NCBI GenBank assembly: GCA_017621515.1
Contig: JAGASY010000096.1
Coordinates: 1 to 64,000, forward strand
Reading direction: 5' to 3'
Source of the DNA: Bacteroidaceae bacterium
GTDB taxonomy: Bacteria; Bacteroidota; Bacteroidia; Bacteroidales; Bacteroidaceae
Length of the DNA: 64,000 bases
Shown here in pieces: positions 2,950-45,033 of the stretch. Numbering within the stretch: position 1 is the first letter of the stretch; every line of letters begins with the position of its first letter. The position numbers and the translations under genes are program-made. The notes beneath the pieces were generated by a model. It made no database searches and was not told where the DNA came from. It saw nothing but the letters and a program-made list of their open reading frames with translations.

Positions 2950-5793
2950 TTATTTTTTCAGCACTACATTGACAATACGTTTCGGAACGACGATGACTTT
3001 CGCCACATTGAATCCGTCGATATACTTCTTCGACTGTTCGTTTTCGAGAACAGCCTTCTCTATGGCAGCGTTGTCTGCATCAGCCGGGAATGCCAACTGG
3101 AAGCGCGCTTTGCCATTGAAGCTTATGGTCAGATTCATGGAATCTTCCTTGAGATATTCCTCGTTCCATTCAGGCCATTGGGCATCGCACACAGATGTGT
3201 CGTGTCCCATAGCCTCCCAAAGTTCTTCGCAGAGATGAGGACAGAACGGCGCGAGAAGTATTGCCATTGTCTCCATCACGGTGCGGTTGTGGCTCTTGAG
3301 CGAATTGAGTTCGTTGAGACATATCATGAATGCAGAAACGGAAGTGTTGTAAGAGAAGTTCTCTATGTCTGCACTGATTTTCTTGATGAGCTTGTGCAGC
3401 GACTTCAGTTCTTCTTTTGTCGGTTCCGCATTGTCTGCCTGAAGTTTGCCTTCGCGGTCGAAGTACATTGTCCACAGCTTTTTCAGGAAGCGGTGGCAAC
3501 CGTCTATTCCGTTTGTGTCCCACGGCTTCGATTGCTCCACCGGTCCGAGGAACATTTCGTACAGACGCAGTGTGTCCGCACCGAATTTCTCCACAATCAT
3601 GTCTGGATTCACCACGTTGAACATGGATTTGGACATCTTCTCGATAGCCCATCCACAGACATATTTCCCATCTTCGAGGATGAACTCTGCTGTGGCATAT
3701 TCCGGTCTCCATGCCTTGAATGCCTCAATGTCGAGTATGTCGTTCGACACGATGTTCACATCCACATGGATAGGTGTTGTCTCGTATTCCTTTCTCAGGT
3801 TATAGCTTACGAAAGTGTTGGTGTCCTTTATGCGATAGACGAAGTTACTCCGTCCTTGTATCATGCCCTGATTGATGAGTTTCTGGAACGGCTCTTCTTT
3901 TGCACTGTATCCGTAATCATGCAGGAACTTGTTCCAGAAACGCGAGTAGATGAGATGTCCTGTCGCATGTTCCGTTCCGCCGACATAAAGGTCCACATTC
4001 TGCCAGTAGTCTCTCGCCTTGTCGCCGACAAGAGCTTCTGAGTTGTGCGGGTCCATATAGCGCAGATAGTAGGCTGACGAACCGGCAAATCCCGGCATGG
4101 TGTAAAGCTCGATAGGGAACACCTTCTCGTTGTCAATCTTGCTGTTCTCCACAATCTGTCCGTTCTCTTCGTCCCAAGCCCATTTGGTGGCATTACCAAG
4201 TGGCGGTTCTCCTGTCTCTGTCGGAAGGAACTTGTCAACCTCCGGCAGTTCGAGAGGCAGGTATTCGGCAGGAATCATGGTCGGTATTCCGTGCTTGTAA
4301 TATACAGGGAACGGTTCACCCCAGTATCTTTGGCGACTGAAGATGGCATCGCGCAAACGGTAGTTCACCTTCACGCGTCCGAGTCCGTGCTCACTGACAT
4401 ATTTCTTTGTGGCAGCAATAGCTTCTTTCACGGTCAGTCCGTTGAGCGACAGACCGGATGCTGACGCAGCGTCCTTGCGCGGACTGTTGCAGACGATTCC
4501 TTCCTTGGCATCGAAGCTCTCTTCGCTCACATCACAGCCCTCGATGAGAGGAATTATCGGCAGATTGAAGTGTTTGGCAAAAGCATAGTCGCGGCTGTCG
4601 TGCGCCGGCACTGCCATGATGGCTCCCGTACCGTAGCCTGCAAGCACATAGTCGCTGACCCATATAGGAATATCTTCGCCAGTCAGCGGGTTAGTGGCAT
4701 AGCTGCCTGTAAATACACCCGTCACCTTCTTGTCAATCATGCGCTCTCTTTCCGTGCGCTTCTTCACCTGTTCCAGATAGTCGTCAACAAGCGGCTTCTG
4801 TTCGTCGGTCGTCACAGTCTGCACCAGTTCGCTCTCTGGTGCAAGCACCATGAAAGTCACACCGAACATGGTATCCGCACGAGTGGTGAAGATGGTGAAA
4901 TATTTGTCTTCGCTATGGGCAATCTTGAAATTCACTTCCGTTCCTTCCGAGCGTCCGATCCAGTTACGCTGTGTCTCTTTCAAAGAGTCTGTCCACTCCA
5001 CTGTGTCGAGTCCGTCGAGCAGACGCTGAGAATAAGCTGACACACGCAGACACCACTGGCGCATCTTCTTCTGCACCACTGGATAGCCGCCGCGCACACT
5101 GACACCATCGACAACCTCGTCGTTGGCAAGCACTGTGCCGAGCTTAGGACACCAGTTCACCATTGTCTCTCCGAGAAAAGCGATGCGCCAGTTCATCAGC
5201 TTGTCGTTCTTCTCCTGTTCGCTCATGTCGTTCCATTCAGCCGCAGTGAAATGCAGCTCTTCTGATTGTGCAGCATTAATGCCTTCAGTTCCTTTTGCCG
5301 ACAGATGTTCTATGAGCTTGGAAATCGGCTGTGCCTTTTGCAAACTGTTGTCATAGTAACTCTCGAACATGAGCTGGAAAGCCCATTGAGTCCATTTATA
5401 GTAGTCAGGAGCACAAGTACGTATCTCTCTGTCCCAGTCGAATGAGAAACCTATCTTGTCGAGTTGTTCACGATAGTGATTGATGTTCTGAACAGTGGTC
5501 ACCTCCGGATGCTGACCGGTCTGTATGGCATATTGCTCTGCCGGCAGACCGTATGCGTCATATCCCATAGGGTTGAGCACATTAAATCCTTGCAGACGCT
5601 TGTAGCGTGCATAGATGTCGCTTGCGATGTATCCAAGCGGATGCCCCACATGGAGTCCCGCACCGGAAGGGTAAGGGAACATGTTGAGCACATAGAACTT
5701 CTTCTTGTTCTCATCCTCGGCAACTTTGTAGGTCTTGTTTTCCACCCATTTGCGTTGCCATTTCTTCTCAATTTCTCTGAAATTGTACTCCAT
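2950..5793 (-). CDS. leuS: Leucyl-tRNA synthetase
   Basis: Class I aminoacyl-tRNA synthetase that charges tRNA-Leu in the cytoplasm; 947 residues, close to the size usual for Bacteroidales enzymes. The HIGH motif is HVGH at residues 48-51 and the KMSKS motif is intact at about 719-723. The CP1 editing domain shows the threonine-rich TTRADTMFG motif and [16 protein letters not shown] charged insertion after residue 155 ([14 protein letters not shown] onward) precedes the [15 protein letters not shown] segment. I chose the ATG at 5791-5793 ([12 protein letters not shown]); an in-frame GTG two codons earlier is less likely. It is the first gene of a two-gene unit with the yitT-rdgB fusion and has a near-perfect Bacteroidales promoter upstream. 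Confidence 0.97.
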
Positions 5794-5863
5794 TATCACT
5801 TATATGTATTTTCTGTTTTCTTATGTAATTGGGCTACAGACAGAAGCCGTCTGTCTATCGTGG

Positions 5864-6011: not shown

Positions 6012-6815
6012 CCTCCATAATAAAATTTTTGACATCGTTTTTTGAAGGAGTGTTCAGTTTTGACAAAATAACACATATTCAACCCATTTTGATTTCCATT
6101 TTACCAATTTTATGTACTTATACTATCTTTTTGATTTTGTCAAATGTTAAAATTCCAAGCCCTCTGGCACGCGTCAAAATAAAGCACACTGAACTTTTGT
6201 CGAAGAACGCGGATTCTACGCGCATTTTCAAAAGCCTCAGAGAAATGTGAAATAGTGTTTCGTTTTTGAACGGTTCTTTTACATTTGTTTATATACAATG
6301 AAAAACTTTTGGAAAAAAACTACTAAGTTTTCAAATTTCCAGCGCACTGTCGTCACATTTTCAGCGCACTGTAATTTTATCTGCAGTGCGCTACAATTTT
6401 AAAAACTTAGTAGTTTGGAGAATTTTTCAGCGTAGAGTTTTTGAAAAAACATTGGGAATCGAAGAAAAAGGCTGTGGGCTTCGAATAAAATGTTAAGAAG
6501 TGTATAAATTCCTGTTTCGAAAGTGTGTCTGAACAAGAACTTAAAAGTGAGTGAATTTGGAAGTGTATTTGGAAGTTAAAACGATGGATTTGATTGTAAT
6601 ATGTTAATAATCAATAGATTATCAGAATATTCAAAATTCTCAAAAAATTGCATCCGGCACGTTTTTTTGAGTGTTTTGGGAAATTTTGTATTCTATTGAT
6701 TATCAACCGTTTATCTCAACAGCAAAATTTTCGTCTCTTCGCCGTCAGCAAAAAATCGCTCGAAATGTTAAATTTTCATTTTGGGCGAAAATATCATTTT
6801 GTCATTTTGAAAAAT
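6012..6815 (-). repeat. 0.8-kb intergenic repeat, copy 1 (reverse orientation)
   Basis: About 804 bases, collinear along the full length with copies at 14827-15630 and 45034-45839 when read on the minus strand. It is AT-rich. Conserved islands include tgatattttcgcccaaaat, aacgtgccggatgcaa, a central hairpin block at 6319-6416, gaaacactatttcacat, gtgccagagggctt, and a terminal gatgtcaaaaattttat. The centre has an outer stem aaactactaag/cttagtagttt (in either reading) enclosing three copies of a cagcgcactg-type word (6340-6393). There is no transposase, no clear terminal inverted repeat and no coding signal. It sits between the leuS promoter and porZ. It could be a structured RNA, a non-autonomous mobile element or a protein-binding site; the sequence does not decide which. 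Confidence 0.8.
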
Positions 6816-6883
6816 GATGTTTTGGCATGTTTACTCAATGTTATAGCTACTTACCAATCCGAATTGAATGTCCATGAACCACT

Positions 6884-6982
6884 TGTAGGGATGCACCCCG
6901 GTGCATCCGCCTCTATGACATGTATTTTTGCGAAGTTCGCGGAGTTCGCAAAGAAACGGATGCACCGGGGTGCATCCCTACA
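6884..6982. repeat. Perfect 26-bp inverted repeat with nested palindromes
   Basis: Left arm 6884-6909 and right arm 6957-6982 are exact reverse complements (26 of 26). Each arm contains the near-palindrome ggatgcaccccggtgcatcc, and the 47-base loop contains another exact stem, tttgcgaa/ttcgcaaa. The composition (GC-rich arms) contrasts with the AT-rich surroundings. It resembles REP-like or MITE-like palindromes. It lies in the 300 bases before the porZ promoter; nothing else is seen there. Confidence 0.8.
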
Positions 6983-7066
6983 TTGACAATCAATAATCAC
7001 CTCCCATAGCGGGGTAGTTACTTCATAAATATTTCAAACGAAACTTAAACTGTTTCAGAAATCGTT

Positions 7067-7095
7067 TTTGCTATTGGATAATAATAGTAACTTTG
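7067..7095 (+). promoter_or_regulatory. Candidate promoter of porZ
   Basis: TTTG (7067-7070), a 17-base spacer, then TAACTTTG (7088-7095). The -7 box is perfect; the spacer is a little shorter than the usual 19-21. The predicted start near 7100 leaves a short leader of about 24 bases. Confidence 0.5.
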
Positions 7096-7123
7096 TGGCA
7101 TATACATATAACATGACGATAAA

Positions 7124-9427
7124 ATGATGAGATATTTTTTTCTGACACTATTCCTGTTTGTGAGTTTAAGCACCTTTGCCGGATATGGCGATTGGACAGT
7201 GTATTCAGCCTATCATAACGCACAGCGTACCGTAGAAGTCGGAGGACGCATATTTGTACTCAGCGACGGAGGACTTTATTGTTACGACCCGGAAGACACC
7301 AGCGTGGAGACATTTGATAAAGCAACGGTGCTCAATGATAACAATATCTATGACATCGCTTTGTGTGAAAAGACCAATGAGCTGGTGATTTTGTATGTGA
7401 ATGGAAACATCGACTTCATGTCTCCGGACGGAAGCGTATTTAATGTGTCTGACCTGAAGACCTCTTCCTTAAGCGACAAGACCATCAATGATGTTCTTGT
7501 AGATAATGGTATAATCTATATTTCCACGAACAGCGGAATTGTGCTTGTGGATGTACAGAACAAAGTGTTCGGAAATTTTTATGCATTCGACAGCAATGTC
7601 TTCAGCATAGTTCTCAGCGATGGGGTTATTTATGCTGCCACGCGTGAGGGTGTATATAAGGGGGACACAAGGCAGAACTTGCTGGACCGCTCCAACTGGA
7701 CGAAACTTCAGGGCTATTCACTCAGAAACCTTGTCAACTTCAATGATACATTCTATGCTGTGACAAATTCCGGAATTTATGTGATTCCTGACAAATCGAC
7801 ATTCAGAATAAACAATATAACCAAAGAGTATTTCACCAAGTGGAGTATTGCCAATGACATGCTGCTGTTGTCGAATGCTTCTTCGTTTGCGTCAATAGAC
7901 ACAAACGGAAAGTTGATGTCATACGGTAATACAGGCATTGTCTCTGCTACTTATCACGGCGGAGGCTATTGGGCGGCTTGTGGTACTGGCGGCTTGAAGT
8001 GTTTCAAGTTCGATGGCTCCAGATTCGAGGAGACGGTTTCTTCTATCATACCTAACAGTCCTCTCCGCAACTACAGCTACCAGTTGCGTATGATGCCGGG
8101 TGAGCGTCTGCTCATTGCCGGAGGTGCATTCAATTATCCGGAGTTGAGAAGAGCCGGTACGGTGATGAGATATGAGGACAGAGAATGGTCTGCCTTTGAC
8201 GAAGAAAAAGTCATTGCAGCAGTGGGGGCAAATGCCTATGTAAAAGTGACCGATGTGGTTCAGGACCCGGCTGATCCCGACCATCATTTTGTCGGCACCG
8301 CCTCTTCCGGAATCTATGAGTTCAGAAACTACGAATTTGTGAGGAACTACACTTATACCAATTCTCCTCTTACTTCTATTCTTCCTAATGGTAGTAATCC
8401 CGGTCTGTACGTGCGTGCCACCGGACTTGAATATGACAAGGATGGGAATATCTGGATGTTCAACAATGAGTGCGACACCATCGTCAGGATATTGAAGAAC
8501 GACGGCAGTTGGAAGGCTTACTATTATGATGAGATTGCCGGCTACCCTACTTTCGACCACTACTTGTTTGACAGCAGAGGACTTGTATGGTTCAACAGCC
8601 GCCGTTCAACAAGTCAGGGAAGCCGTGCGGGAGTGTTTGTGCTTGATACTCATGGAACGATTGATGACGAAAGGGATGATACATACCGTTTCATCTACAG
8701 TTTCAATAATCAGGACGGCAAGAACTATCAGCCTTCTGAGTTCAACTGTATGACGGAAGACCTTAATGGTGCGATATGGTTTGGTACCAGTGCCGGATTG
8801 TTTGTGAGCTATAATCCGAGGGACGCGTTCTCTTCAAGTTTTTATTTCACTCAGGTGAAAGTTCCACGCAACGACGGAACCAACCTTGCCGACTATCTTT
8901 TGAGTGAAGTGCCGGTGAAGTGCATCACGGTGGATGGCGGAAACCGCAAATGGATAGGCACGTCGGGAAACGGAGTCTATCTCGTCAGTGCAGACGGATT
9001 GGAGACACTGGAACATTTCACCACAGAGAACAGTCCTCTTATCTCAGATGATATTTATTCCATTGCGATAAACGGTTCCACGGGAGAGGTGTTTATCGCC
9101 ACAAGCGATGGGCTTGTGTCGTATATGGGGAATGCCACAGACCCGGAAGAATCTTTTAATAAGGATGTCGTGAAAGTGTTCCCTAATCCGGTGCGTCCGG
9201 AATATCAGGGAAATGTCACGATTACGGGACTGAAGTATAACAGCAACGTGAAGATTGTGAATGCAGCGGGACGTCTTGTCCATGAAGGAACGTCGGTGGG
9301 AGGTGCATATACGTGGAACTGCACCACTTCGGCAGGCAAACGAGTCGGCTCCGGAGTTTATTATGTGCTTGCCGCAGATGAAGAAGGCAATGACGGAGTT
9401 GCAGGCAAGATTCTGATTGTAAGATGA
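7124..9427 (+). CDS. porZ: PorZ-like type IX secretion system protein
   Basis: A secreted 767-residue protein. After a signal peptide (MMRYFFLTLFLFVSLSTFA) come two beta-propeller regions: an N-terminal half with the segment VILYVNGNIDFMSPDG, typical of the PorZ propeller, and a second half with regulator-propeller blades such as GNIWMFNNE, GLVWFN, GAIWFGTSAGL and RKWIGTSGNGVY. It ends with a T9SS type A sorting-like domain (VKVFPNPVRPEYQGN onward, ending in KILIVR). In Porphyromonas gingivalis PorZ is part of the cell-surface complex that attaches T9SS cargo to anionic LPS; length and architecture fit. It suggests a working T9SS elsewhere in the genome. It is a single gene, convergent with comF 19 bases downstream. 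Confidence 0.8.
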   Translation: MMRYFFLTLFLFVSLSTFAGYGDWTVYSAYHNAQRTVEVGGRIFVLSDGGLYCYDPEDTSVETFDKATVLNDNNIYDIALCEKTNELVILYVNGNIDFMSPDGSVFNVSDLKTSSLSDKTINDVLVDNGIIYISTNSGIVLVDVQNKVFGNFYAFDSNVFSIVLSDGVIYAATREGVYKGDTRQNLLDRSNWTKLQGYSLRNLVNFNDTFYAVTNSGIYVIPDKSTFRINNITKEYFTKWSIANDMLLLSNASSFASIDTNGKLMSYGNTGIVSATYHGGGYWAACGTGGLKCFKFDGSRFEETVSSIIPNSPLRNYSYQLRMMPGERLLIAGGAFNYPELRRAGTVMRYEDREWSAFDEEKVIAAVGANAYVKVTDVVQDPADPDHHFVGTASSGIYEFRNYEFVRNYTYTNSPLTSILPNGSNPGLYVRATGLEYDKDGNIWMFNNECDTIVRILKNDGSWKAYYYDEIAGYPTFDHYLFDSRGLVWFNSRRSTSQGSRAGVFVLDTHGTIDDERDDTYRFIYSFNNQDGKNYQPSEFNCMTEDLNGAIWFGTSAGLFVSYNPRDAFSSSFYFTQVKVPRNDGTNLADYLLSEVPVKCITVDGGNRKWIGTSGNGVYLVSADGLETLEHFTTENSPLISDDIYSIAINGSTGEVFIATSDGLVSYMGNATDPEESFNKDVVKVFPNPVRPEYQGNVTITGLKYNSNVKIVNAAGRLVHEGTSVGGAYTWNCTTSAGKRVGSGVYYVLAADEEGNDGVAGKILIVR

Positions 9428-9446
9428 TGGCTGTGACGAATAATTC

Positions 9447-10223
9447 TTACACCAGCTTTTCTTTTATTATATAAGTGTAATCCTCTTCTATTATAGAAGC
9501 GGGCTCCTCTTCGTTTTCGTATGTGGAGGAAATATTGCTGTGTCCGGCGACACAAAGTGTTGCGATGGAAATCTTTACATCTTCCGCCTTGGTAAGTTCT
9601 TTGGCGCAAGAGCTGATTGTGGCACCGGTAGTCATCACATCATCCACGAGCAAAACGTACTTGCCGTGAATCCGTTCCGGACGAACTAATCGGAATATAT
9701 CCTCCACATTGTCCCAACGCTCATAGGGCATGAGGGCGGTCTGGGTCTGATTATCGACAACTCTTTTTACGACATTCCTCCATACAGGGATTCCAGTCTG
9801 CCGGCTGATGCCTCGGGCAATCCATTCGCTCTGATTGTATTCGCGTTTCCATTGCCTTTGCCGAGAGAGCGGAACCGGAATGATGCAGTCTATGCCGTCG
9901 AAGAAACCGCAATCCTTTATTTCTGCTGCAAAAATCTCTGAGACATATCGTCCCGTCTCAGGCGCATGGTGGTATTTCATGCTATATATGATGTCTCTGG
10001 TGCGTATTCCGTCATAAAACAAGAAAGAAGTGGCGCGCTCAATGGGCAGCTTTCCCCAGAAATACATTTCTATGGGACTGTGCTTGCACAGGTGATAGTT
10101 GGTGCGCGGAAGCATCCGCAGACAGGAAACACAAAGGTGTTTCTCTGTCGTCGAGAGTCTGCATCCACACATAAGGCACTGACGCGGAAAAATAAAATCG
10201 GCTATGTCACGGAAAATCTTCAT
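9447..10223 (-). CDS. ComF-family phosphoribosyltransferase-like protein
   Basis: 258 residues. The N-terminal zinc-finger-like part has two CxxC pairs (QCLMCGC and HLCVSCL, residues about 16-35). The C-terminal half is a type I phosphoribosyltransferase fold with the PRPP-binding signature VLLVDDVMTTGAT. The family includes ComF (natural transformation) and GntX; in Bacteroidetes the role is usually assigned as DNA uptake or phosphoribosyl transfer without direct proof. Its ATG overlaps the stop of the recX gene by four bases (ATGA), so the two are translationally coupled. The position after recX fits a DNA-uptake or recombination role. Confidence 0.88.
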   Translation of the reverse strand: MKIFRDIADFIFPRQCLMCGCRLSTTEKHLCVSCLRMLPRTNYHLCKHSPIEMYFWGKLPIERATSFLFYDGIRTRDIIYSMKYHHAPETGRYVSEIFAAEIKDCGFFDGIDCIIPVPLSRQRQWKREYNQSEWIARGISRQTGIPVWRNVVKRVVDNQTQTALMPYERWDNVEDIFRLVRPERIHGKYVLLVDDVMTTGATISSCAKELTKAEDVKISIATLCVAGHSNISSTYENEEEPASIIEEDYTYIIKEKLV

Positions 10224-10732
10224 GTGTTCATTTCTTCTTCAGAATCAAAATCCGCAGTTTCGCAATCGCAGTCTATGACTTTCATTATGCTTCCCATGTC
10301 GAAACCTCTTGACAAAGCGAACCTCATGAGCTTGGTTTTGATTTCATATTCCGACTTTCCCTTGGTGGTTTTTCTCTTGGTTTCGATAATCTTGCGCAGA
10401 GCTGCCATATATTCTTCGTCTTCTATTTCCGTTTTGGCATCTTCTATCAGGCATGAATCTATGCCCTTCATGCGAAGCTCACGCTCTATCCGTGCCATTC
10501 CCCAATGATTGTACCGGAATTTGTCGCGGACGAAAGCCCGCGCATATCGGGCTTCGTCTATATATTTCTCTTGCATAAGACGTGCCAACACATGTTCTTC
10601 CGCATTTTCTGGAAGCTCCCAGTTGTCCATTTTCCTCTTCATGTCGGCACGGCAATACTCCGCCGTGGCACAAAGAGCGGACAGCCGGATGTAGGCTTCC
10701 TGTTCCGACAGCACTTTTTTCTTTCTTTCCAT
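10220..10732 (-). CDS. recX: RecX-family regulator of RecA
   Basis: 170 residues of alpha-helical three-helix repeats typical of RecX: SEQEAYIRLSALCATAEYC, a YIDEARYARAFVRDKFRYNHWG segment and RIERELRMKGID. RecX binds RecA filaments and limits recombinase activity. The C-terminal tail is acidic (DCDCETADFDSEEEMN). It lies 66 bases after prmC and overlaps comF by four bases. The spacer before it is strikingly purine-rich on the coding strand. recA is not in the window. Confidence 0.85.
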   Translation of the reverse strand: MERKKKVLSEQEAYIRLSALCATAEYCRADMKRKMDNWELPENAEEHVLARLMQEKYIDEARYARAFVRDKFRYNHWGMARIERELRMKGIDSCLIEDAKTEIEDEEYMAALRKIIETKRKTTKGKSEYEIKTKLMRFALSRGFDMGSIMKVIDCDCETADFDSEEEMNT

Positions 10733-10798
10733 TTCTGTGATTCTTCTTTTTTCTTCCCTGTTTCCTCTTCTCCTTCTGTTCTTTCTCCCTTTCAGTGT

Positions 10799-11665
10799 CT
10801 ATTCTCCTCCCTTGAAAATACCTTTTATCATGCGCTCTTTGTTCATGAAATCTCGCTTTGTTTCAATCTGCGTGAAACCAAATGTGCGCATAAGGTCGGC
10901 TGTTTCGAGGCTGAATCTGCTATTGATTTCAAAATACAGAGCACCGCCGGGGTACAACATCTTTGTCGCTTTTTCGGCTATGGCTCGATAAAACAGCAGC
11001 GGATCGTTGTCCGGAACAAACAATGCCGTACTCGGTTCATGTTCCAACACGTTCCTTTCCATACCAGTACGTTCTTCCTCGCAGATGTACGGCGGATTAC
11101 TTACAATGGCAGAGTACCTGCACGTCATATCCATTTCAAAGAGTGGAGCAAGCACATCCCTTTGTCTGAACACGACCTCCGCCCCGATAATTTCTGCATT
11201 CTTTTCCGCTATTCGGAGAGCTGTTTCCGATATGTCCCATGCCTCCACCTTGGCTCCACAGAGCCTGCGAGCAAGAGAAATGGCAATGCAACCGCTTCCA
11301 GTACCTATATCAAGCAGTCGGAGAGACTGCTTATTCACCGTATCTGTATAGTCTTGACATATCCACTCCATAAGCTCTTCTGTCTCAGGACGCGGAATGA
11401 GCACACCCGGAGCCACATTGAACGTATGTCCGCAGAAATCCGCTTTACCGAGAACGTATTGGACAGGCTCTCCGTTGGCTATGCGTTCCGCCATTCTGTA
11501 TAATTCCGCCACGGTGCCATTGTCCAGACATTCGTCTTTGCCCATGACGACATCCGTCATTCCGAGTCCGCAGTGTTTCTCTAACAGCAAGAAACTTATT
11601 GCTGAGGATTCATGTTCACCATACAATTCTATGAACTTGTCTTTTAATGTCTTGTAAATCTTCAT
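10799..11665 (-). CDS. prmC: Release factor glutamine N5-methyltransferase
   Basis: 288-residue SAM-dependent methyltransferase that methylates the glutamine of the GGQ motif in peptide chain release factors. Visible motifs are an N-terminal helical domain, PVQYVLGKADFCG, LIPRPETEELMEWI, the SAM-binding LLDIGTGSGCIAISLA, and the substrate-binding AIVSNPPYI. I chose the ATG at 11663-11665 (MKIYKTLKDKF); an open frame continues 32 codons upstream into the preceding gene but is not family-like. It starts 7 bases after the membrane-bound AraC regulator and precedes recX-comF, forming one likely transcript. Confidence 0.93.
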   Translation of the reverse strand: MKIYKTLKDKFIELYGEHESSAISFLLLEKHCGLGMTDVVMGKDECLDNGTVAELYRMAERIANGEPVQYVLGKADFCGHTFNVAPGVLIPRPETEELMEWICQDYTDTVNKQSLRLLDIGTGSGCIAISLARRLCGAKVEAWDISETALRIAEKNAEIIGAEVVFRQRDVLAPLFEMDMTCRYSAIVSNPPYICEEERTGMERNVLEHEPSTALFVPDNDPLLFYRAIAEKATKMLYPGGALYFEINSRFSLETADLMRTFGFTQIETKRDFMNKERMIKGIFKGGE

Positions 11666-11672
11666 GCACAAA

Positions 11673-14591
11673 TTAGTTTGTATGAGGGCTATCCGATATG
11701 TTGTCAGGCGCTTTCGGGTTGCGCTCGTTCTCCTGTCTGTATTGTGAAGGGGAAACACCATACATTTCCTTGAAGCACTTGCTGAAATAGCGCGGAGTGC
11801 CGAAGCCGATACGATCCACCAGTTCTGCCACCGAACAATCTTCCGACTGCAAAATGTCCGCCGCCTTCTTCAGACGTATGCTGCGTATAAATTCAGACGG
11901 TTTCTGCCCCGTAAGATTCTGGAGTTTCCGGTAGAGATTCATGCGGCTCATGCAGAGGTCGCTACTGAACTGTTCCACGCTGTACTCCGCATTGTCAAGA
12001 TTCTGCTCCACGACTGCCGTGGCGCGTCGGATAAACTCCTCGTCCTGTCGGGATGTATGCGGAGTATCCTTCTCTTCATCGTTCTTCTTTGCTCTGTGAT
12101 GCTCCTCTTTTTCTTCTTCCGGTTTCGTGACGAGAAGCGCACTCTCCAGCATTTCCGTTTCCTCTTTCTTCCGTCTGTGCAGACGGAGTGCGGCGAGAAT
12201 AAGGATGAGAGCCGCAGCATACACAACGTATGCCTGCCATGTAGCATACCACGGCGACTTGCGGTAAACGGTAAACCACTCCGTTGTGGTAGTTCTATAC
12301 CTGTTTCCACCAGTCACACTCACTTCCATCCTATTTTCTCCGTATGGAAGATTGTGCAGCACAATACTGTTGACTCCTTCCGGCAGCACAGTCCATTCCT
12401 CATCCGTCTCCATCCTGTATGCAAACCGGAGACTGTCGGCATGAAGATACTCAAAAGCCGATACAAACAGTTCTGCCTCATTGTCATCGGCGGAGAACTC
12501 AATCCGTGTCTCTCCTGTACCTATCATCTGCACTTTCCCATTTACTTTTATGCCGGTCACTGCTATTCGGGGAGAACAAAATTGGCTTTCCGCCTGCTCC
12601 ACAGAGGCAATCATGCAGAAAGCTCCGAGTCCGCCAAGACAGATGCTGTCCTCTTCAAGACAAATGGTGTGAAAATAATCCATGTTGATGTCAGCGTCCG
12701 AGCTATATAAAATATGTACAGCCCCCGTCTTTGGAGAATATTCGCGCAGATATTTGTCCGACAGAATCCACAGATTGCCATACTTGTCCGCCACGATTTT
12801 CTTTATTCCGTCACCATTACTGTTGCCAGCCTTTTCATCGTCAACAGGATGTTTCTCTCCTTTCGGCAGACAGAATACATTTCCTTCGGACGTAGCAGCC
12901 CATACACATCCGTCGGATGTGATGGTGAGCGAGGTGAATGCCGCGTCATTGCTTGGTTTTCCAACATCGATTCTTTGAGGAACTTTCCGGCTTCGCTCCA
13001 TCCTGCACAAGCCCATATTATCTGCAATGAAATACACCGTCCCTTCTTTGTCACAGGCAATCTCTTTGACACATCCCGTATTGTATGCCATTGTGGTCAG
13101 TTTTCCGTCAGCCTCATTATAACAGCACAGGGAGTTGTCCGTCCCGATATACAATAGCTGCTCGCCCCTGTCGTACAGTGTATTTATCCTGTGTGCAGTG
13201 CTTGCCCGTTCCTCTTCTTTCCACAGAATATGTCCTCCCTCGTTCCATACGCGGAATATATGTCTGCCGTTGCATGCCCAGATACCTTTGTCTGAGCTTC
13301 TTTTCGTGATGCACTTGCCGATGGACAGCGGAAAGGGTGAAGCATTGCGGTTGGCAAAAACCATTCTCCCGGTGTATGAGTCATAGAGAGAAAGCTGTGT
13401 GCGTCCCTGCCATATCCAGAAGAAGCGAGAGTCTTCGCGTGCAATCATATCAACCATGACCCTATAGCCCACGGAGTCGGACATGGCCTTCACTTCATCG
13501 CGGCGCATACGGTTGTCTTTCTGATACACAATGAATGTGTGCGGCGAGTATCCCGGCACCCAGATGTTGCCGGCATTGTCCGCAATGATATTATCAAGAA
13601 TCTTTTTTCCTTCGGGAAGGAATGTCCTCGTGTCTATGGCGACAAGACTGTCCCCTCTCACTTCGTATGCGTAGAGATTGTCCATTGCGGCAGCCCACAG
13701 TATGTTCCTCGGCTTGTCATACACCATGTTGAACACCTGACTGCGGAAACTCCCTTCTCCGTCACTACCGACAGTACAGGCTTGGCGCAAGATGCTGATG
13801 CTGTCATTCTGCTTATCGAAATTATATTTCACGATGCCCTGTCCCCATGTCGCCACCCACAGACCACCGTGTCGTGGGTCTGGAACGATGAAGTTGGGAC
13901 GCAATGTCCGGTCCCATTTCATGGCAATGAAGCTCCGGCTTGCGGCATCGAACCGCACGAGCCCTCCGTGGCATTGTATGGCAACCACTCCCACCGAGGC
14001 GGTTTCGGCGAAGTTCGTCACATTGACAGCCCTGCCTTCCCATTCCGACTTGAACACGCAGAACGTCTTTCCGTCGGAGTCATAGCGGTAGATGTTCGCT
14101 CCGGTTCCAATCCATACAGCACTGTCGGAGGAGGTGAACATACATCCGGTCCATGCATCGCGCAGTTCATTGTCTTCAATTCTGCATATAGTATAGTTCT
14201 TTTTGTCAAGAATGTATGTCCCGGCCTTTGTACCGAACCATATACGTCCGTGTCCGTCTTCCGTCATGCAGGTAATGTCATTGCTTGCAAGCAGCGAAGG
14301 AGTATTGCGGTCGGAACGGAAGACCTCCACATTGTAGCCGTCGTCGCGGCATAGTCCGCCCCCTTCTGTGGCATACCACATGTAGCCTTCCGAGTCTTGC
14401 AGAATGCGGTGTACATTGGCAACAGGGAGTTGTCCCTGATTGGGGAGTTCTTTGATGCCAAAGACATAACGCTTGGAAGAAAGCAATGTCGGATTTCCTC
14501 CGTGGCATGTCTCGGCGGCATTGCCGTGTGCCGAAACAACAATGGTCAGGAAGATGAATACAATAAAGTAAATGTGTTTATATCGTAGCAT
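11673..14591 (-). CDS. Membrane-bound propeller/Y_Y_Y sensor with AraC-type DNA-binding domain
   Basis: About 972 residues. Signal or anchor segment MLRYKHIYFIVFIFLTI, then a large periplasmic region of regulator-propeller blades (GYMWYATEGGGLCRDDGY, GRIWFGTKAGTYIL, GGLWVATWGQGIVKY and others) and a Y_Y_Y-like module (LRFAYRMETDEEWTVLPEG). Next come one transmembrane helix (AYVVYAAALILILAALRL, about 785-805), a charged 45-residue linker, and a C-terminal AraC/HTH_18 domain (about 850-960) with SPSQYRQEN. Hybrid two-component sensors of Bacteroidetes have the same ends but also a histidine kinase and receiver; here both are absent, so signalling would be direct across the membrane. ATG at 14591 fits the promoter box best; ATG at 14606 is possible, and the TTG at 14621 overlaps the promoter. 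The inducer is unknown. Confidence 0.85.
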   Translation of the reverse strand: MLRYKHIYFIVFIFLTIVVSAHGNAAETCHGGNPTLLSSKRYVFGIKELPNQGQLPVANVHRILQDSEGYMWYATEGGGLCRDDGYNVEVFRSDRNTPSLLASNDITCMTEDGHGRIWFGTKAGTYILDKKNYTICRIEDNELRDAWTGCMFTSSDSAVWIGTGANIYRYDSDGKTFCVFKSEWEGRAVNVTNFAETASVGVVAIQCHGGLVRFDAASRSFIAMKWDRTLRPNFIVPDPRHGGLWVATWGQGIVKYNFDKQNDSISILRQACTVGSDGEGSFRSQVFNMVYDKPRNILWAAAMDNLYAYEVRGDSLVAIDTRTFLPEGKKILDNIIADNAGNIWVPGYSPHTFIVYQKDNRMRRDEVKAMSDSVGYRVMVDMIAREDSRFFWIWQGRTQLSLYDSYTGRMVFANRNASPFPLSIGKCITKRSSDKGIWACNGRHIFRVWNEGGHILWKEEERASTAHRINTLYDRGEQLLYIGTDNSLCCYNEADGKLTTMAYNTGCVKEIACDKEGTVYFIADNMGLCRMERSRKVPQRIDVGKPSNDAAFTSLTITSDGCVWAATSEGNVFCLPKGEKHPVDDEKAGNSNGDGIKKIVADKYGNLWILSDKYLREYSPKTGAVHILYSSDADINMDYFHTICLEEDSICLGGLGAFCMIASVEQAESQFCSPRIAVTGIKVNGKVQMIGTGETRIEFSADDNEAELFVSAFEYLHADSLRFAYRMETDEEWTVLPEGVNSIVLHNLPYGENRMEVSVTGGNRYRTTTTEWFTVYRKSPWYATWQAYVVYAAALILILAALRLHRRKKEETEMLESALLVTKPEEEKEEHHRAKKNDEEKDTPHTSRQDEEFIRRATAVVEQNLDNAEYSVEQFSSDLCMSRMNLYRKLQNLTGQKPSEFIRSIRLKKAADILQSEDCSVAELVDRIGFGTPRYFSKCFKEMYGVSPSQYRQENERNPKAPDNISDSPHTN

Positions 14592-14618
14592 GACTTGTTC
14601 TCTCATCTTATTTCTTGA

Positions 14619-14626
14619 CAAAGATA
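14619..14626 (-). promoter_or_regulatory. Candidate -7 box for the membrane AraC regulator
   Basis: Minus strand TATCTTTG, a perfect TAnnTTTG, about 28 bases before the chosen start codon. No good -33 TTTG is seen. It argues against the longer TTG-initiated frame, whose start codon lies inside this box. The 200 bases upstream to copy 2 of the long repeat hold no gene; two direct words ttagtgattgtattcga and ttagtgagtgcattcac occur near 14768-14812. Confidence 0.45.
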
Positions 14627-14826
14627 ATGCTTTTTGCTCTTATATAGTCCGGTACGCGTGCAAAAAACATAGAGGAAATTAGGGGAAGGCTGTCATAATA
14701 ATGTCACCAAGAATTTCTGAACCGTTCTTGAGACACGTTCTTTCACAGACTATATCTGTGTGTTTCTTAGTGATTGTATTCGATTGTTTTTTAGTGAGTG
14801 CATTCACAAAAAAATAGCTAAAACCG

Positions 14827-15630
14827 ACTTTTTCAAAATGACAAAATGATATTTTCGCCCAAAATGAAAATTTAACACTTGAAGCGACTTTGGGACAAAA
14901 GCGAAAAGACAAAATTTTCAGAGCAAAGACAAACTATTGAAAATCAAATGAATACAAAAATTCTCAAAATGCTCAAAAAAACGTGCTGGACGCAAATTTT
15001 CGAGATTTCTGAATATTCTGATAATCTATTGACTATCAACATGCTACAACCAAAACTACTGCTTTCACCTCTAAATGTCACCCAAAATCCACTCACTTTT
15101 AAGTTTCTGTTCAGACACTCTTCCAAAGCAGCGATTTATACACTTCTTAACATTTTATCCGAAGTCCACAGCCTTTTTCTCCGATTCCCAATGTTTTTTC
15201 AAAAACTCTACGCTGAAAATTTCTCCAAACTACTAAGTTTTTAAAATTGTAGCGCACTGTAAACAAAATTACAGTGCGCTGGAAATGTGACGACAGTGCG
15301 CTGGAAATTTGAAAACTTAGTAGTTTTTTTCAAAAGACTCTTCGCCAAGGATAAATAAATGTAAAAGAATTGCTCTAAAACGAAACACTATTTCACATTT
15401 TCCGAAAGCATTTGAAAATGCGCGTAGAAGTCCCGATCTCCGAGAAAAGTTCGGCGCGCCTCATTTTGACGCGTGCCAGAGGGCTTAGGATTTTAACATT
15501 TGGCAAAACCAAAAAGAAAGCATTTTAATGTAAAACGGGTAAGTAAGAAAATGAAATTGCGGAATTTTTGACATTTTGTCAAAACGCAATACCCCTCCAA
15601 AAAACGATGTCAAAAATTTTTTTATGGGGC
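14827..15630 (+). repeat. 0.8-kb intergenic repeat, copy 2
   Basis: About 804 bases, the same element as copy 1 but in the opposite orientation, collinear from actttttcaaaatgac to atttttttatggggc. The central block (15228-15328) has an outer stem aaactactaagttttt / gaaaacttagtagttt enclosing a perfect 10-base hairpin agcgcactgt/acagtgcgct plus one more cagtgcgctg. Near the right end is another perfect inverted repeat, ttttgacattttgtcaaaa. It is placed between two divergent transcription units. No gene is accepted inside. Confidence 0.82.
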
Positions 15631-16019: not shown

Positions 16020-17030
16020 ATGAAAAAGGTGAATTGGCTTATCTCGCTGATGGTCGTTGTCTTTGCGGCTAACTCTGCTCTTGCGCAGGATGTTCCCAAA
16101 CAGCGAGGCTTGCTGCAAATGTTTAATCTTAGTGGACCGGTAAAGAAAGCGGTCTTTGTGACAAATGTAAGTTTTCTCGGTTTTCCGGAGAAAGAAAAAG
16201 TAGTGGAGTTTTCTGAGGGGGGGTATCCGGAAGATTTTTTTGGAGAAGAATTTGAAATAGTCGATAGAAACGATGAGAAGTTTGTCGTCAAGGAAGGCAA
16301 CAAGACGCATACATGGCTTTTTGTGGGCATTGGAGATGAAGTCCGTGTCAAGAAATATTTGTATGAGTCTCCTGAAATGAATGCCTCTTTCTCTTTGACA
16401 TACGCAGGAAAGGACGTATCGCAAGAACAGTTCCAAGGAGTCGTTCCTGCCACGGGTGATAAATTTGAATCACTGGTGTATTACACGGTGCTTGACAGAG
16501 ACAAATATGGCAATTGGACACGGCGCAAGGCAAAAATAAGTGGCAGTAAGGAGGTCAATGCCGTGGAGTCGTGCTTGATTACTTATTACACACCCGAGGA
16601 AATTGCTAAAGGTCTTGTTCCGCCTCCACCGCCTGTTGTTCCTGAAATTTCGGAAATACTGCTTATAGATGAAGATAAGTCGGAAGAATCTCTTGAAGAG
16701 GACGTGGATGACGATGCCGTATATGAAATAGTCGAGCAGATGCCGAGTTATCCGGGCGGCGAAAGTGCCATATTCTCGCATATAGCTCGAAATCTTCGCT
16801 ATCCGATGCTTGCGGCTGAAAACGGTGTGCAGGGGCGGGTGGTTGTGACGGTTGTCGTTAATAAAGATGGTTCATTAACCATTTCGGACACAAGTGGAGT
16901 AGATGACCCGTCTCTTGTCAAAGAGGCTGAACGCGTGATAAGAACATTATCTAAATTCACTCCCGGCAAACAGAACGGGAAGGTTGTAAAGGTAAAAATG
17001 AATATCCCTGTTAATTTTATATTGAAATAA
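16020..17030 (+). CDS. Periplasmic protein with C-terminal TonB domain
   Basis: 336 residues. A cleavable signal peptide (MKKVNWLISLMVVVFAANSALAQ) replaces the membrane anchor of true TonB. Residues 25-195 are a domain I do not recognise (mostly beta-like, with a VVEFSEGGYP segment). They are followed by a short proline run (PPPPPVVP, about 201-208), an acidic linker, and a TonB C-terminal domain (about 250-336: QMPSYPGGESAIFSHIARN, then NGVQGRVVVTVVVNKDGSL and FTPGKQNGK). Such domains contact TonB-box peptides or peptidoglycan. First of three genes spaced by four bases each; the downstream partners are lipoproteins, suggesting an envelope complex. Confidence 0.75.
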   Translation: MKKVNWLISLMVVVFAANSALAQDVPKQRGLLQMFNLSGPVKKAVFVTNVSFLGFPEKEKVVEFSEGGYPEDFFGEEFEIVDRNDEKFVVKEGNKTHTWLFVGIGDEVRVKKYLYESPEMNASFSLTYAGKDVSQEQFQGVVPATGDKFESLVYYTVLDRDKYGNWTRRKAKISGSKEVNAVESCLITYYTPEEIAKGLVPPPPPVVPEISEILLIDEDKSEESLEEDVDDDAVYEIVEQMPSYPGGESAIFSHIARNLRYPMLAAENGVQGRVVVTVVVNKDGSLTISDTSGVDDPSLVKEAERVIRTLSKFTPGKQNGKVVKVKMNIPVNFILK

Positions 17031-20206: not shown

Positions 20207-21697
20207 TTATCTGTATCTATGTACAGTTACTTCTGGTGCATTCACTTTTTCCTCTTGCTTGTTCTGCAACGGAGAGTTTGAATTAAGTCTAAAACATACC
20301 GGTATAGTGAAATATGAACTTACTGGCTTGCCTTTTATCTTCCCGGGTTTCCATTTGTTCAATCCTTTTATGCAGCGAATCGCTTCCGCATCGAGTGAAG
20401 GGTGTACACTTTTTACCACTTTCATATCTGCTACATTGCCAGCTTTGTCGATGGTAAGTTTCACATATACGCGACCTTCGATGCCTTTATTAAGTGCGTC
20501 AGTAGGATATTTCAGGTTCAGGGCAAGGTATTTAAACATGTCTTCCTGTCCTTCGGAATATTCCGGAAGCTCTTCTACCATGCTATATACCTTTGTTGTG
20601 TCTTTGGCTACAGGCTGCTCCGCAACTGATGTGGCTGGAACATCTGATTCGGCATGTTGACTCTCTTTTTCTACAGACGGAACATTTACCTTCGTAGGTG
20701 TGGATTCCGTGTTTTTTGTTACAAGAGATACAAAATCCGTACTCTTTAGATTCATTTCTGAGACTAAATTGCTAACTTTGGCATCGTCAATGGCGTTTGC
20801 ACTGTTTTCGAACTCTGTTGTGGCGAATGCGCTAAGAGCTAACATTGCCGCAGGGGCAACGTACAGAACCTTTGTACGTGACCACGGATTTGATTTTTTC
20901 TTCATCATCATAGTGATACGATTTTTAAGTAAACTGTGATTAAAGCTGTTGGCGAAAGCGTAGGAAACTGAGCCGACAGCTTTTTTTATTAATAGCATCT
21001 GGTAAGAACGTGCGTTGACTCCTTGTTCCAGAACGTATCTGTCTGCCTCATATTCATGGACATCACGCAGCTCTGAAGAGAGTATCCACACGAAGGGATT
21101 GAACCATTGCAAGACTTCTATTATTGATATGACACACACATCGAGCGAGTGTCTGTAGATGATATGCCCTTTCTCGTGTGTGATTATTTCCTGTTTATGG
21201 GCATTATAGTCGTTTTGGGAAATGACTATGGAGTGCATCCAGCTGAAGGACGGGACATCGCTCAAATGACAATATATACGTATTCCGTCTTCTTTGCTTG
21301 TCCAAATATTCCCTTTTCGCATGAAACTGTACATTCGTAAAAGTCCTGAAAGCTTGGCTGTGAAGCATACAGTCGTTCCCAAGAGATAGACTGTTACCAC
21401 CAGTTCTGCCCACCCGAATGTGAATGTATGGGTTGCCGCTGTGTCGTCCATGACTGTGGCAACAGGTATATCTGCCAATACGATGGCTGTTTCTACCACA
21501 GTCAATGGCTCACTATAAAATGAGGCGAACTGACTGATGTTGACCAATGGGAGCAGGAGTGACAGTAGCATGACTGCAAGTAATAGAATGCGGTTCAGGC
21601 GGAAATAGGTCTCATGCCGCATCAACAGCAGGTAGGGGATGAAGAGCATTGTCAGACAAATTGCCGACTTGATGGCATATATACAGATAGTTCCCAT
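20207..21697 (-). CDS. BlaR1-like M56 metallopeptidase with TonB C-terminal domain
   Basis: 496 residues. Transmembrane segments lie near 8-27, 36-55, 95-115 and 265-285. A zinc-peptidase domain carries THEKGHIIYRHS (HExxH at 174-178) and a downstream HEYEADRYV that would supply the third ligand. Unlike BlaR1/MecR1 there is no penicillin-binding sensor domain. Instead the periplasmic tail ends in a TonB-C domain (about 395-480: EGRVYVKLTIDKAGN, ADMKVVKSVHPSLDAEAIR, WKPGKIKGKPV). It follows the BlaI/MecI repressor gene by 47 bases, the classic repressor-protease pair in which the peptidase triggers loss of repression. The signal and the regulated genes are unknown; beta-lactam resistance should not be assumed. 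Confidence 0.88.
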   Translation of the reverse strand: MGTICIYAIKSAICLTMLFIPYLLLMRHETYFRLNRILLLAVMLLSLLLPLVNISQFASFYSEPLTVVETAIVLADIPVATVMDDTAATHTFTFGWAELVVTVYLLGTTVCFTAKLSGLLRMYSFMRKGNIWTSKEDGIRIYCHLSDVPSFSWMHSIVISQNDYNAHKQEIITHEKGHIIYRHSLDVCVISIIEVLQWFNPFVWILSSELRDVHEYEADRYVLEQGVNARSYQMLLIKKAVGSVSYAFANSFNHSLLKNRITMMMKKKSNPWSRTKVLYVAPAAMLALSAFATTEFENSANAIDDAKVSNLVSEMNLKSTDFVSLVTKNTESTPTKVNVPSVEKESQHAESDVPATSVAEQPVAKDTTKVYSMVEELPEYSEGQEDMFKYLALNLKYPTDALNKGIEGRVYVKLTIDKAGNVADMKVVKSVHPSLDAEAIRCIKGLNKWKPGKIKGKPVSSYFTIPVCFRLNSNSPLQNKQEEKVNAPEVTVHRYR

Positions 21698-21744
21698 AAA
21701 AATGAATGTTTTAAAGTCGTGAAAAAAAGGATTGCGGAAGAAAT

Positions 21745-22128
21745 CTATTGGTTGTTGACGAGGTTTATAAGCTCCTTAATGTCTGATTCCGATAGTTTTT
21801 CTTCGCGTACAAAAAAGCTCAGGAATGACGATGCTGAACCGTCAAATATGCTGCTTTTGATTTCCGACATGACTCTGCGCCTGTACTCGTCTTTTGACAG
21901 TGTAGGGCTGAATATGTTTTGTCTTTTGCCTTTCTGTTCTTTCTTGCATTTCAGGAATCCTTTCATATTCAGTATCTTCATGAAAGTGGCGATTGTGGTA
22001 TATGCCGGTTTCGGCTCCTCATACTTTTCGATGACATCGTTTACGTAGCACCACTTGTCAGATAGGCTCCAGACAATGTTCATCACTTGCATTTCTGCCT
22101 TTGTCAATGTTTGCCATTTCTTTTCCAT
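21745..22128 (-). CDS. BlaI/MecI/CopY-family transcriptional repressor
   Basis: 127 residues. Winged-helix DNA-binding domain at the N-terminus (LTKAEMQVMNIVWSLSDKWC, PAYTTIATFMKILNMKGFL) and a helical dimerisation tail. Family members bind palindromic operators and are inactivated by proteolysis through the partner M56 peptidase, which is the next gene. The promoter region just upstream carries an exact 16-base palindrome likely to be its operator, implying autorepression of the pair. Confidence 0.92.
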   Translation of the reverse strand: MEKKWQTLTKAEMQVMNIVWSLSDKWCYVNDVIEKYEEPKPAYTTIATFMKILNMKGFLKCKKEQKGKRQNIFSPTLSKDEYRRRVMSEIKSSIFDGSASSFLSFFVREEKLSESDIKELINLVNNQ

Positions 22129-38722: not shown

Positions 38723-38790
38723 TATTCCATTGTCATTTTTTTTGACTACATCCTTCCTTTCTGTAGTCGCGGCTGCAATGCAATGGGATA
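38723..38790 (+). promoter_or_regulatory. Candidate S4-responsive mRNA structure before rpsD
   Basis: A nested hairpin. The outer stem pairs tattccattg (38723-38732) with caatgggata (38781-38790), one mismatch. The inner stem pairs gactaca (38744-38750) with tgtagtc (38762-38768), perfect. An asymmetric internal loop lies between them (T-run on the left, gcggctgcaatg on the right). It ends 24 bases before the rpsD start. S4 is the feedback regulator of the alpha operon in E. coli, so this is a likely autoregulatory element. Confidence 0.6.
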
Positions 38791-42985: not shown

Positions 42986-44863
42986 ATGAAAGAATTTCTA
43001 CGCACACTCTGCCTCTGTGCAGTTTTCCTGTTTACTCTCGGCAGCCAAGCGCAAGATTGGTTCCGGGTGAGTATTCATGACATGGATGAGGAGTGGCATT
43101 TTCCTTATCGCATTGAGCATGTACCCTATTTTGAGTTCAACGAAGGTCTTGATACCTTGAAGGCATATCGTTACGGAACGGACGAGACAGAGACCGGATA
43201 CAGCCATATCCCTTTTGCAGTATCCTCGCTTGATAGCATTTCTTTCTTTTCCTCGCCCGAAGCCTTTACGCAGAACCGTTACAAGGCTTTTGCCATGAAC
43301 ATTGTTACAGAAGACATGTCTCCTGTCGATTCAAAAGAGCAGTATGTCCCTTGCTATATCTCCATCGACGGAAAAGGCGAATTTCCTGACTATTCAGGTT
43401 CGGCACGCATACGCGGACGAGGCAATTCCACATGGCTCTGGTATCCTAAAAAGCCCTATCGCATCAAGCTCGATGTGAAAGAGAATATTCTGGGATTGAA
43501 AAAGAATAAAGACTGGGTGCTTCTTGCCAACTATCGCGACCCGACCGATCTCATGAATACATTCGCTTTTGAAACGGCACAATGGCTTGGGATGCCGTTC
43601 ACGAACCACACCCGTTATGTGGAGGTTTTTCTGAATACGGACTATATCGGGCTTTACCAACTTACAGAACAAGTAGAGCAGGGGAACAATCGGGTGGATA
43701 TTTCCGAAGAAGGAGGTGTGTTGCTCAGCTTCGACCTTGATGACGGACCGGATTTGAGTCCTTCTGCCACAGACAACTTCTATTCCGAGGTCTATAAGAT
43801 GCCTATGTGCATTAAGTTTCCGGATGATCCTACGGAGGAGCAGATAAGTCAGATACGTTCAGAACTCTCCGAACTCGAAGCTGCTGTTAGGAAGCACGAC
43901 TATGAGAAAGTCTCAGAACTCATGGACATGCAAACGTTCATTTCTATGCTTCAACTGCAAGAATACCTTTACAATGTCGATTTCACAGCTCCACGCAGTG
44001 TCTATATGTTTCGTGATGCCGGAGGCAAATACACGATGGGGCCTGTGTGGGACTGGGATGCCGGATACGATTTCGACTGGGGCAGTGAACATAACTTTTT
44101 TGCTTCATATCGCAAGCTGATGATGGGAACAGACCCGCTTCACCAAAACGGAGCTTATTCTCTCCCGAGATTCTTTACAGACATGTTCGGCTCTTCCCGC
44201 TTTATTTCCGAATACAAAGAGGCATGGAACCGCATATCCTCTTCGATATTTACCCGCAACTGGGCTGAATGCGAGAAGTTTGTGGATTGCATGAATGAAG
44301 GAGCTTTTGCACGCGACTCCAAGCGTTGGTACATCGGTAAGCAGGTCGGCACAGAAATCAGCAAAATGAAGTCGTGGTTGAACAATCGTGCCGATTATAT
44401 GACAACGGTCATCAACTCATATCCTTTGCCGTTGGAAAAAGTTATTGTTGGAAAGATAGAGAAGGCATTGTCTCTCCGTTATGCCGATGGCTATGGGCAG
44501 TCCGTTACAGTGGATATAGATATGGCAGAGCTCGCTGATATTCTCGGAATTACTCCGGATGCGCTTCTTGCCTCCGACAATATTGTCATTGTTCCTTTGA
44601 TGCTCGACGGCTCAGAAGGAATCAATAAAACTAATGGAGTGTTTGGAGGATGGTTTGATGCCAACGGCGAACCATACACGTGGGACAGTGGACATGTCTA
44701 TATAGAGGTGCTCTATGACTTGTTCTCTTGGAACTGCGGTGTTCGTACAGATGCCGGGCATTGTGTTCGCGGACATAAACACACTGTCACAATGCAATAT
44801 CAGTATCGTGATACAGATTGTATTAAGGCCGTGAATGTAGAAGTGACATTCACAGTTGAGTAA
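42986..44863 (+). CDS. Secreted CotH-kinase family protein
   Basis: 625 residues with a signal peptide (to about residue 22, GSQAQ). N-terminal module with the motif VSSLDSISFFSSPEA. The CotH-like kinase domain covers about 110-420: SARIRGRGNSTWLWYPKK, YRIKLD, WVLLANYRDPTDLMNT, IGLYQLTEQVEQGNNRVD, and the metal-binding GPVWDWDAGYDFDWG. The C-terminal 120 residues resemble DUF4859 (GINKTNGVFGGWFDANGEPY). Spore-coat CotH proteins phosphorylate partner proteins; secreted bacterial homologues are mostly uncharacterised and ATP would be scarce outside the cell, so the substrate is open. Second gene after the PagL-like barrel. Confidence 0.85.
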   Translation: MKEFLRTLCLCAVFLFTLGSQAQDWFRVSIHDMDEEWHFPYRIEHVPYFEFNEGLDTLKAYRYGTDETETGYSHIPFAVSSLDSISFFSSPEAFTQNRYKAFAMNIVTEDMSPVDSKEQYVPCYISIDGKGEFPDYSGSARIRGRGNSTWLWYPKKPYRIKLDVKENILGLKKNKDWVLLANYRDPTDLMNTFAFETAQWLGMPFTNHTRYVEVFLNTDYIGLYQLTEQVEQGNNRVDISEEGGVLLSFDLDDGPDLSPSATDNFYSEVYKMPMCIKFPDDPTEEQISQIRSELSELEAAVRKHDYEKVSELMDMQTFISMLQLQEYLYNVDFTAPRSVYMFRDAGGKYTMGPVWDWDAGYDFDWGSEHNFFASYRKLMMGTDPLHQNGAYSLPRFFTDMFGSSRFISEYKEAWNRISSSIFTRNWAECEKFVDCMNEGAFARDSKRWYIGKQVGTEISKMKSWLNNRADYMTTVINSYPLPLEKVIVGKIEKALSLRYADGYGQSVTVDIDMAELADILGITPDALLASDNIVIVPLMLDGSEGINKTNGVFGGWFDANGEPYTWDSGHVYIEVLYDLFSWNCGVRTDAGHCVRGHKHTVTMQYQYRDTDCIKAVNVEVTFTVE

Positions 44864-44913: not shown

Positions 44914-44983
44914 TAAGTGGGTGTATTTACATACTCTTCCGTTACATGATAACGACGGAAAAGTATGTAAATACACTCACTTA
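44914..44983. repeat. 70-bp palindrome with TAAGTG ends
   Basis: Arms 44914-44942 and 44955-44983 (29 bases each) are inverted with about three mismatches around a 12-base loop. The outer sequence taagtgggtgtatt is shared with the ends of the larger palindrome at 48656-48925. It starts 51 bases after the cotH stop and could act as a terminator, but there is no T-run. Confidence 0.7.
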
Positions 44984-45033
44984 AACAAAATCATATCCCC
45001 CCACATAAGTAGCAGTAAAACACGTTAAAAACA

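Follow-up and report, generated by a model that had tools for sequence, protein, structure and literature searches.

REP/BIME elements occur in hundreds of intergenic palindromic copies, the REPs being 20–40 bp long, and roles in DNA supercoiling have been proposed for them. In the ParB-parS, MatP-matS, Noc and SlmA systems, palindromic chromosomal sites recruit a spreading or bridging protein; these sites are single and short, number in the tens and are regionally biased. Phased direct arrays of about 20–22 bp beside AT-rich DNA are found at iteron plasmid origins and at ParR/TubR-type centromeres. Within the order Bacteroidales, P. gingivalis carries BrickBuilt, a MITE of 84–991 nt present in 19 copies and made of 1 to 22.8 spacer-less units of 23 nt, with terminal inverted repeats like those of ISPg1 and some target-site duplications (PMC4596501). 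BrickBuilt is always intergenic and has no coding capacity, its sequence is limited to the species, its loci are conserved between strains, and one member, BrickBuilt_12, adjoins leuS (PMC4596501, Table 1 therein).

Here we analysed a non-coding 0.8-kb element in a 64,000-nt stretch of a Bacteroidaceae genome (the window; contig C69 of genome G000, 3.39 Mb in 133 contigs). The coordinates and end-to-end collinearity that the earlier note gave for three segments proved right (copies A, B and C in the table), and the near-identical islands it quoted are present in the window copies. Its count of three holds for the window segments and greatly understates the family. A profile built from oriented copies detected 94 copies in the 1.17 Mb of contigs that it covered, which scales to about 270 copies per genome and about 6% of G000 DNA. 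About two thirds of G000, and most of a second genome of the same genus (G001, 270 contigs) and of a more distant one (G002, also of this genus), were searched by pattern only; in G000 the island pattern CCAGAGGGCTTNGNATTTTAACA gave at least 184 matches against 0 for the reversed control. By blastn in G000, 40 matches scored among 302 candidates had 76–88% identity and nearly all spanned most or the whole of the query, with E values between copies down to 1e-234. These E values and the 184 matches against none in the control contradict a match confined to low-complexity AT sequence, which the earlier note had allowed for. Most of the 74 aligned full copies were 804 ± ~10 bp long; their mean pairwise identity was 0.74, and the islands were more than 95% conserved. 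In copies that are 74% identical, near-invariant islands and an unchanging length point to selection. Truncated or decayed copies were almost absent from the profile search of 1.17 Mb.

Table. Copies of the 0.8-kb element in the window, their parts and the longest interval lacking the element
Feature	Position	Strand	Context or basis
Copy A, 0.8-kb element	6012–6815	-	Between leuS (2950–5799, -) and PorZ-like gene (7124–9427, +)
Copy A central array, three CAGYGCRCTG-type sites at 6340, 6362, 6384	6340–6393	-	22-bp register
Copy B, 0.8-kb element	14827–15630	+	Between HTH/regulator-propeller gene (11673–14621, -) and TonB-domain gene (16020–17030, +)
Copy B central array, sites at 15250, 15272, 15294	15250–15303	+	22-bp register
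Copy B outer sites AACTACTAAG / CTTAGTAGTT	15228 / 15316		Inverted pair on the same 22-bp register; direct reading
Copy B near-invariant island TGATATTTTCGCCCAAAAT	14847–14865	+	Alignments
Copy B near-invariant island GAAACACTATTTCACAT	15382–15398	+	Alignments
Copy B near-invariant island GTGCCAGAGGGCTT...ATTTTAACATT	15473–15500	+	Alignments; pattern with 184 genome matches, 0 in control
Copy C, 0.8-kb element, second array subtype	45034–45839	+	Between CotH-domain gene (42986–44863, +) and 46251–46751 (+)
Copy C central array, six sites at 45392, 45414, 45436, 45458, 45480, 45502	45392–45511	+	All 22 bp apart
Longest element-free interval in the window (29 kb)	15646–44917		Holds ribosomal-protein cluster (S12 at 22820, L2 at 28021)

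The location between genes reported for the window copies extends to the whole family, with three weak overlaps with short predicted ORFs. Free flanks of typically 100–500 bp lie on either side of the element, and none of the orientations of the neighbouring genes is strongly favoured (24 ++, 21 -+, 14 +- and 11 --). The lack of coding bias was borne out by the alignment of copies, in which column variability carried no lag-3 signal. The lack of a terminal inverted repeat was likewise confirmed at the aligned ends of the 74 copies; a short motif, TGACAAAATG, is inverted subterminally, at distances of about 11 and about 60 bp from the two ends, as read directly in the window copies, and is degenerate in copy C. 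An origin from a plasmid or phage was rejected, as blastn against PLSDB and INPHARED gave no match to the element and IMG/VR gave none to its pattern. It is best explained as a DNA site rather than a gene. Like a MITE it is non-coding, short, intergenic and high in copy number; we did not class it as one because terminal repeats were looked for in the 74 aligned copies and are lacking. Other repeats adjoin the window copies: a REP-like palindrome (TAGGGATGCACCCCGGTGCATCC with its complement) at 6905–6985 next to copy A, an inverted repeat at 44915–44985 next to copy C and, beside copy C, a segment of about 180 bp with inverted ends (45886–46066; AGCTGTTTTAAATTTATT ... AATAAATTTAAAACAGCT) that has the appearance of a small MITE-like element in its own right.

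The centre of each copy is an array of 10-bp palindromes, CAGYGCRCTG, in strict 22-bp register. Throughout the 1.17 Mb, all close site spacings were 22, 44, 66 or 88 bp (72, 20, 24 and 8 cases, respectively), and 215 of the 220 exact sites lay inside elements. Two array subtypes were distinguished, one with about three sites (27 of the 74 copies, including copies A and B) and one with up to five or six (46 of the 74, including copy C). The three-site subtype has two further outer sites, read in copy B, that form an inverted pair on the same register. The 12-bp spacers between palindromes are variable in this genus; palindromic spacers, tried as a general rule, were seen in Parabacteroides and are absent here.

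By anatomy, the element resembles BrickBuilt: both occur in Bacteroidales, are intergenic and non-coding, have sequences limited to the species, have a leader and a tail around an array with a period of about two helical turns, and have a copy beside leuS. Unlike BrickBuilt, it is present in about 270 copies and has a constant length of 0.8 kb, and in place of spacer-less 23-nt units in variable number it has three to six 10-bp palindromes separated by variable 12-bp spacers; it also differs in the lack of any terminal inverted repeat or target-site duplication found, in its even spacing and in its concerted evolution across species. It departs from REP/BIME elements in being conserved over 804 bp rather than 20–40 bp, in its phased arrays and in an exclusion distance between copies. 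The likeness to ParB- or MatP-type sites is one of anatomy alone, namely phased palindromes, which here form arrays within 0.8-kb elements and are spread evenly in about 270 copies. In contrast to iterons and ParR/TubR-type centromeres, the element lacks adjacent replication or partition genes and has hundreds of chromosomal copies. Literature searches on evenly spaced bacterial repeats returned nothing relevant besides BrickBuilt, and the library searched contained no element of fixed length that is evenly spaced over the whole chromosome and has a phased palindrome array specific to the species. What is new beside the known elements may be the spacing rule and the concerted evolution; by anatomy alone the element is BrickBuilt-like.

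A large structured RNA, one of the options in the earlier note, would have to be encoded in hundreds of copies. Fixed length and patchy conservation would suit such a gene, and the array could fold into hairpins, its outer arms being inverted repeats. However, windowed RNAalifold analysis of 40 copies on both strands, compared with column shuffles, gave a consensus energy of about 0 kcal/mol nearly everywhere and no conserved fold outside the array palindromes. Mutual information between columns, calculated as a covariation check, was dominated by the two array haplotypes and not by base pairs. In addition, the strict 22-bp register suits a constraint of the DNA helix better than hairpin loops, and Rfam held no match to the element; the sole Rfam match in the window was an S4-Bacteroidia ribosomal-protein leader elsewhere (38744–38775). 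An RNA gene is accordingly a very improbable reading of the element.

Next, we examined the spacing of the copies. The 76 intervals on long contigs had a minimum of 6296 bp, a mean of 13.0 kb and a CV of 0.48. By contrast, 5000 random placements into 283 eligible intergenic gaps gave minima of about 0.7 kb and a CV of 0.82 that never fell below 0.60. Intervals shorter than 6.3 kb made up 1.3% of those observed and at least 25% in every one of the 5000 placements (expected share over both interval sets, 25–41%). The second set, meant to offset the bias from choosing long contigs, comprised 32 other contigs and is a supporting one, its positions being taken from pattern lists that miss some copies: the 47 intervals between listed copies had a minimum of 5.3 kb, and none was below 5 kb, versus 35% expected. 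The longest element-free interval in the window contains long ribosomal-protein operons, which leave no room for a copy.

Neutral repeats could become spaced in this way if harmful recombination purged close copies and the well-spaced ones survived. Copies do appear to recombine, since junctions of rearrangements between the species coincide with elements (G000 C99:56611 and C41:13044 versus G001 C164:13094-13214; G002 C91:11762 and 15585). However, inverted pairs, between which recombination causes no deletion, keep the same exclusion distance (minimum spacing 6.9 kb for copies in the same orientation and 6.3 kb for opposite ones, on long contigs), and the selection indicated by the islands and the constant length also counts against neutrality, making this explanation improbable, if less so than an RNA gene.

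CAGYGCRCTG sites lying outside the 0.8-kb elements led to a second family, of 0.25 kb, with 15 copies in the gaps between the 0.8-kb elements. It has four inner 11-bp palindromes and outer CAGTGCGCTG-type sites, and single arrays mix palindrome variants. A 22-bp register was rejected for this family, the measured distance between inner palindromes being 21 bp. The short copies lie farther from the long elements than expected by chance (minimum distance, p = 0.0002; mean distance, p = 0.003; length of the host gap, p = 0.006), and the two families combined have a mean spacing of 11.0 kb with a CV of 0.43.

A mobile element subject to target immunity could also become evenly spaced. According to this explanation, a non-autonomous BrickBuilt/MITE-like family saturated the genome, cis immunity shown by its transposase barred it from landing within about 6 kb of a resident copy, and gene conversion later made the copies alike. 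It would account for the spacing together with gains and losses of copies, and it fits both the BrickBuilt-like anatomy (leader, two-turn tandem array, tail, intergenic position, leuS copy) and the restriction of the high copy number to the genus. Against it stand the scarcity of truncated or decayed copies and the spacing of the short family, which is kept relative to the 0.8-kb family. A search for a TniB/TnsC-type ATPase (PF05621) yielded only borderline hits, which were also present in 13 of 14 control genomes and are probably ordinary AAA proteins.

The sister species allowed the history of individual sites to be followed. The G001 assembly breaks at elements, many of its contigs ending in a copy. 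About nine G001 copies were found at G000 sites, as were about six of seven testable G002 copies; the site upstream of leuS (copy A) is occupied in both (G001 C52/C82; G002 C39 and C104), and the copy C site is occupied in G002 (C60:59909-60944). Most testable sites are common to species whose genes differ by 7–30%, which argues against a mobile family. On the other side, the empty-site comparison proposed in the earlier note did turn up one empty G001 site (C33), corresponding to the G000 copy at C54:21.9k; G001 has a copy some 2 kb from there. Neither a terminal inverted repeat nor a target-site duplication was seen at this one empty site, whose flanks are too diverged to show a duplication. 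One further G000/G001 junction lacked a copy, and at one shared site the element apparently has opposite orientations (G000 C41:2230-3074 versus G001 C41:8323-8725). The idea of an old mobile family, also raised in the earlier note, therefore draws support from the empty site, the alternative site nearby and the BrickBuilt likeness, and loses it through the missing terminal repeats and the few decayed copies; we consider it the main alternative to a protein-bound anchor and a rather unlikely one.

Although sites are largely shared, the sequences of the copies have changed together within each species. In their core and array, orthologous G000 and G001 copies were no closer than random pairs, whereas the outer right edge kept an ortholog signal in four of eight cases (ranks 1, 1, 2 and 3 of 74). 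At the same sites, the G001 palindrome is CACCGCGGTG, in 22-bp register, versus CAGYGCRCTG in G000, and the CACCGCGGTG pair was not found in G000 or G002. G002 has its own 0.8-kb family, 75–83% identical within itself and only faintly similar to the G000 family. These comparisons show concerted evolution at fixed sites, with core and array homogenised within each species and edges inherited vertically, a pattern that points to gene conversion as the probable means of homogenisation. The 0.25-kb family is also present in G001, where its outer sites remain of the CAGYGCRCTG kind, so the motifs of the two families need not change together. Copies in G001 (C164:1-60) and G002 (f2 consensus 200-350) are often flanked by a palindromic repeat (CTCCCCTAAGTTAGGGGAG ... 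CGACGGAGGAGTCTGTC), part of which is also found in G000 flanks.

The register, the fixed length, a spacing independent of orientation and family, the lack of a fold outside the array and the lack of an Rfam match favour protein-bound DNA over RNA. Among the options in the earlier note, a protein-recruiting site is the best supported, by the register, fixed length, even spacing, conserved sites and indifference to gene orientation. Judged from sequence, the 0.8-kb element appears to be a chromosome-wide anchoring site of an undescribed kind, and not an RNA or an ordinary junk repeat. We give about an even chance to its being a protein-bound anchor, evenly spaced along the chromosome and homogenised by gene conversion. 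In the mechanism that we propose, an oligomerising DNA-binding protein would load on the central array, whose palindromes, two helical turns (22 bp) apart, would present about the same face of the DNA. Along with proteins bound to the conserved islands on its flanks, it would form a nucleoprotein anchor or domain boundary. Such anchors would be kept between operons every ~7–15 kb, with the short 0.25-kb type serving in gaps. Gene conversion among copies would keep them alike within a species, so that the palindrome and the protein reading it could change together while the sites stay. The array-binding protein, its lattice, the anchoring function and co-evolution with the palindrome are what we infer from the sequence patterns. 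Sites that differ between sister species, one of them empty, count against an anchor, as do the mixed palindrome variants in short-family arrays, which make a less orderly picture than a single fixed recognition sequence. If the element is an architectural site, it would provide sequence coordinates for chromosomal domains of about 10 kb in a major order of gut bacteria; if it belongs instead to a mobile family showing target immunity, that family would be an unusually saturated case. That about 270 palindromic arrays have changed in concert between sister species is an evolutionary puzzle in itself.

To examine the prevalence of such arrays, other Bacteroidales were searched. Five further genera of the family, sampled over 80 kb each, showed no high-copy 0.8-kb form, which therefore cannot be needed universally. 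Across 1.88 Mb from other Bacteroidales, pairs of exact 10-bp palindromes that share at least 8 of 10 bases and are 14–39 bp apart numbered six at 22 bp, one at 30 bp and none at other distances, and runs of three or more palindromes numbered seven at 22 bp versus one in total at the remaining periods between 15 and 33; some of these runs and pairs, above all those in L097 and L147, are of little length and could represent coding sequence or simple repeats. Parabacteroides sp. PF5-9 (L133) and a Tannerellaceae MAG (L136) both have clear arrays immediately upstream of leuS. Genome-wide, Parabacteroides sp. PF5-9 has 58 pair matches of a GACAATTGTC-type array and 406 of a GAGGTACCTC-type array, with 0 in the control for each. 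The two Parabacteroides families are interleaved, with a minimum spacing of 7.1 kb among the matches listed (44 intervals, CV 0.55), which uniform placement never reached in 5000 trials; as only listed matches were used, the true spacing is tighter, and pairs below that minimum are possible. In the Tannerellaceae MAG, TCCGTACGGA arrays are present on about 15 contigs. We tentatively suggest, at somewhat less than an even chance, that Bacteroidales chromosomes carry, every 7–15 kb, periodic nucleoprotein anchors on palindrome arrays phased at two helical turns, which belong to one family or to two that interleave. This would be a bacterial counterpart to a regular system of domain boundaries, in which recognition sequence and protein would turn over together while sites and spacing are inherited.

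Two minor observations concern other genomes. A Prevotellaceae MAG (L149) contains a low-coding repeat of 0.1–0.3 kb at three places within 22 kb (186-475, 9501-9597 and 21507-21793), about 10 kb apart; this repeat is a different one, and no phased array was seen in it. Other 22-bp palindrome arrays occur in other genera at L330 895-961 (G033), L083 20124-20180, L124 3374-3430 and L091 19902-19968, with other motifs (ACGTGCACGT, CTTGGCCAAG, ACTGTACAGT and GCTCGCGAGC).
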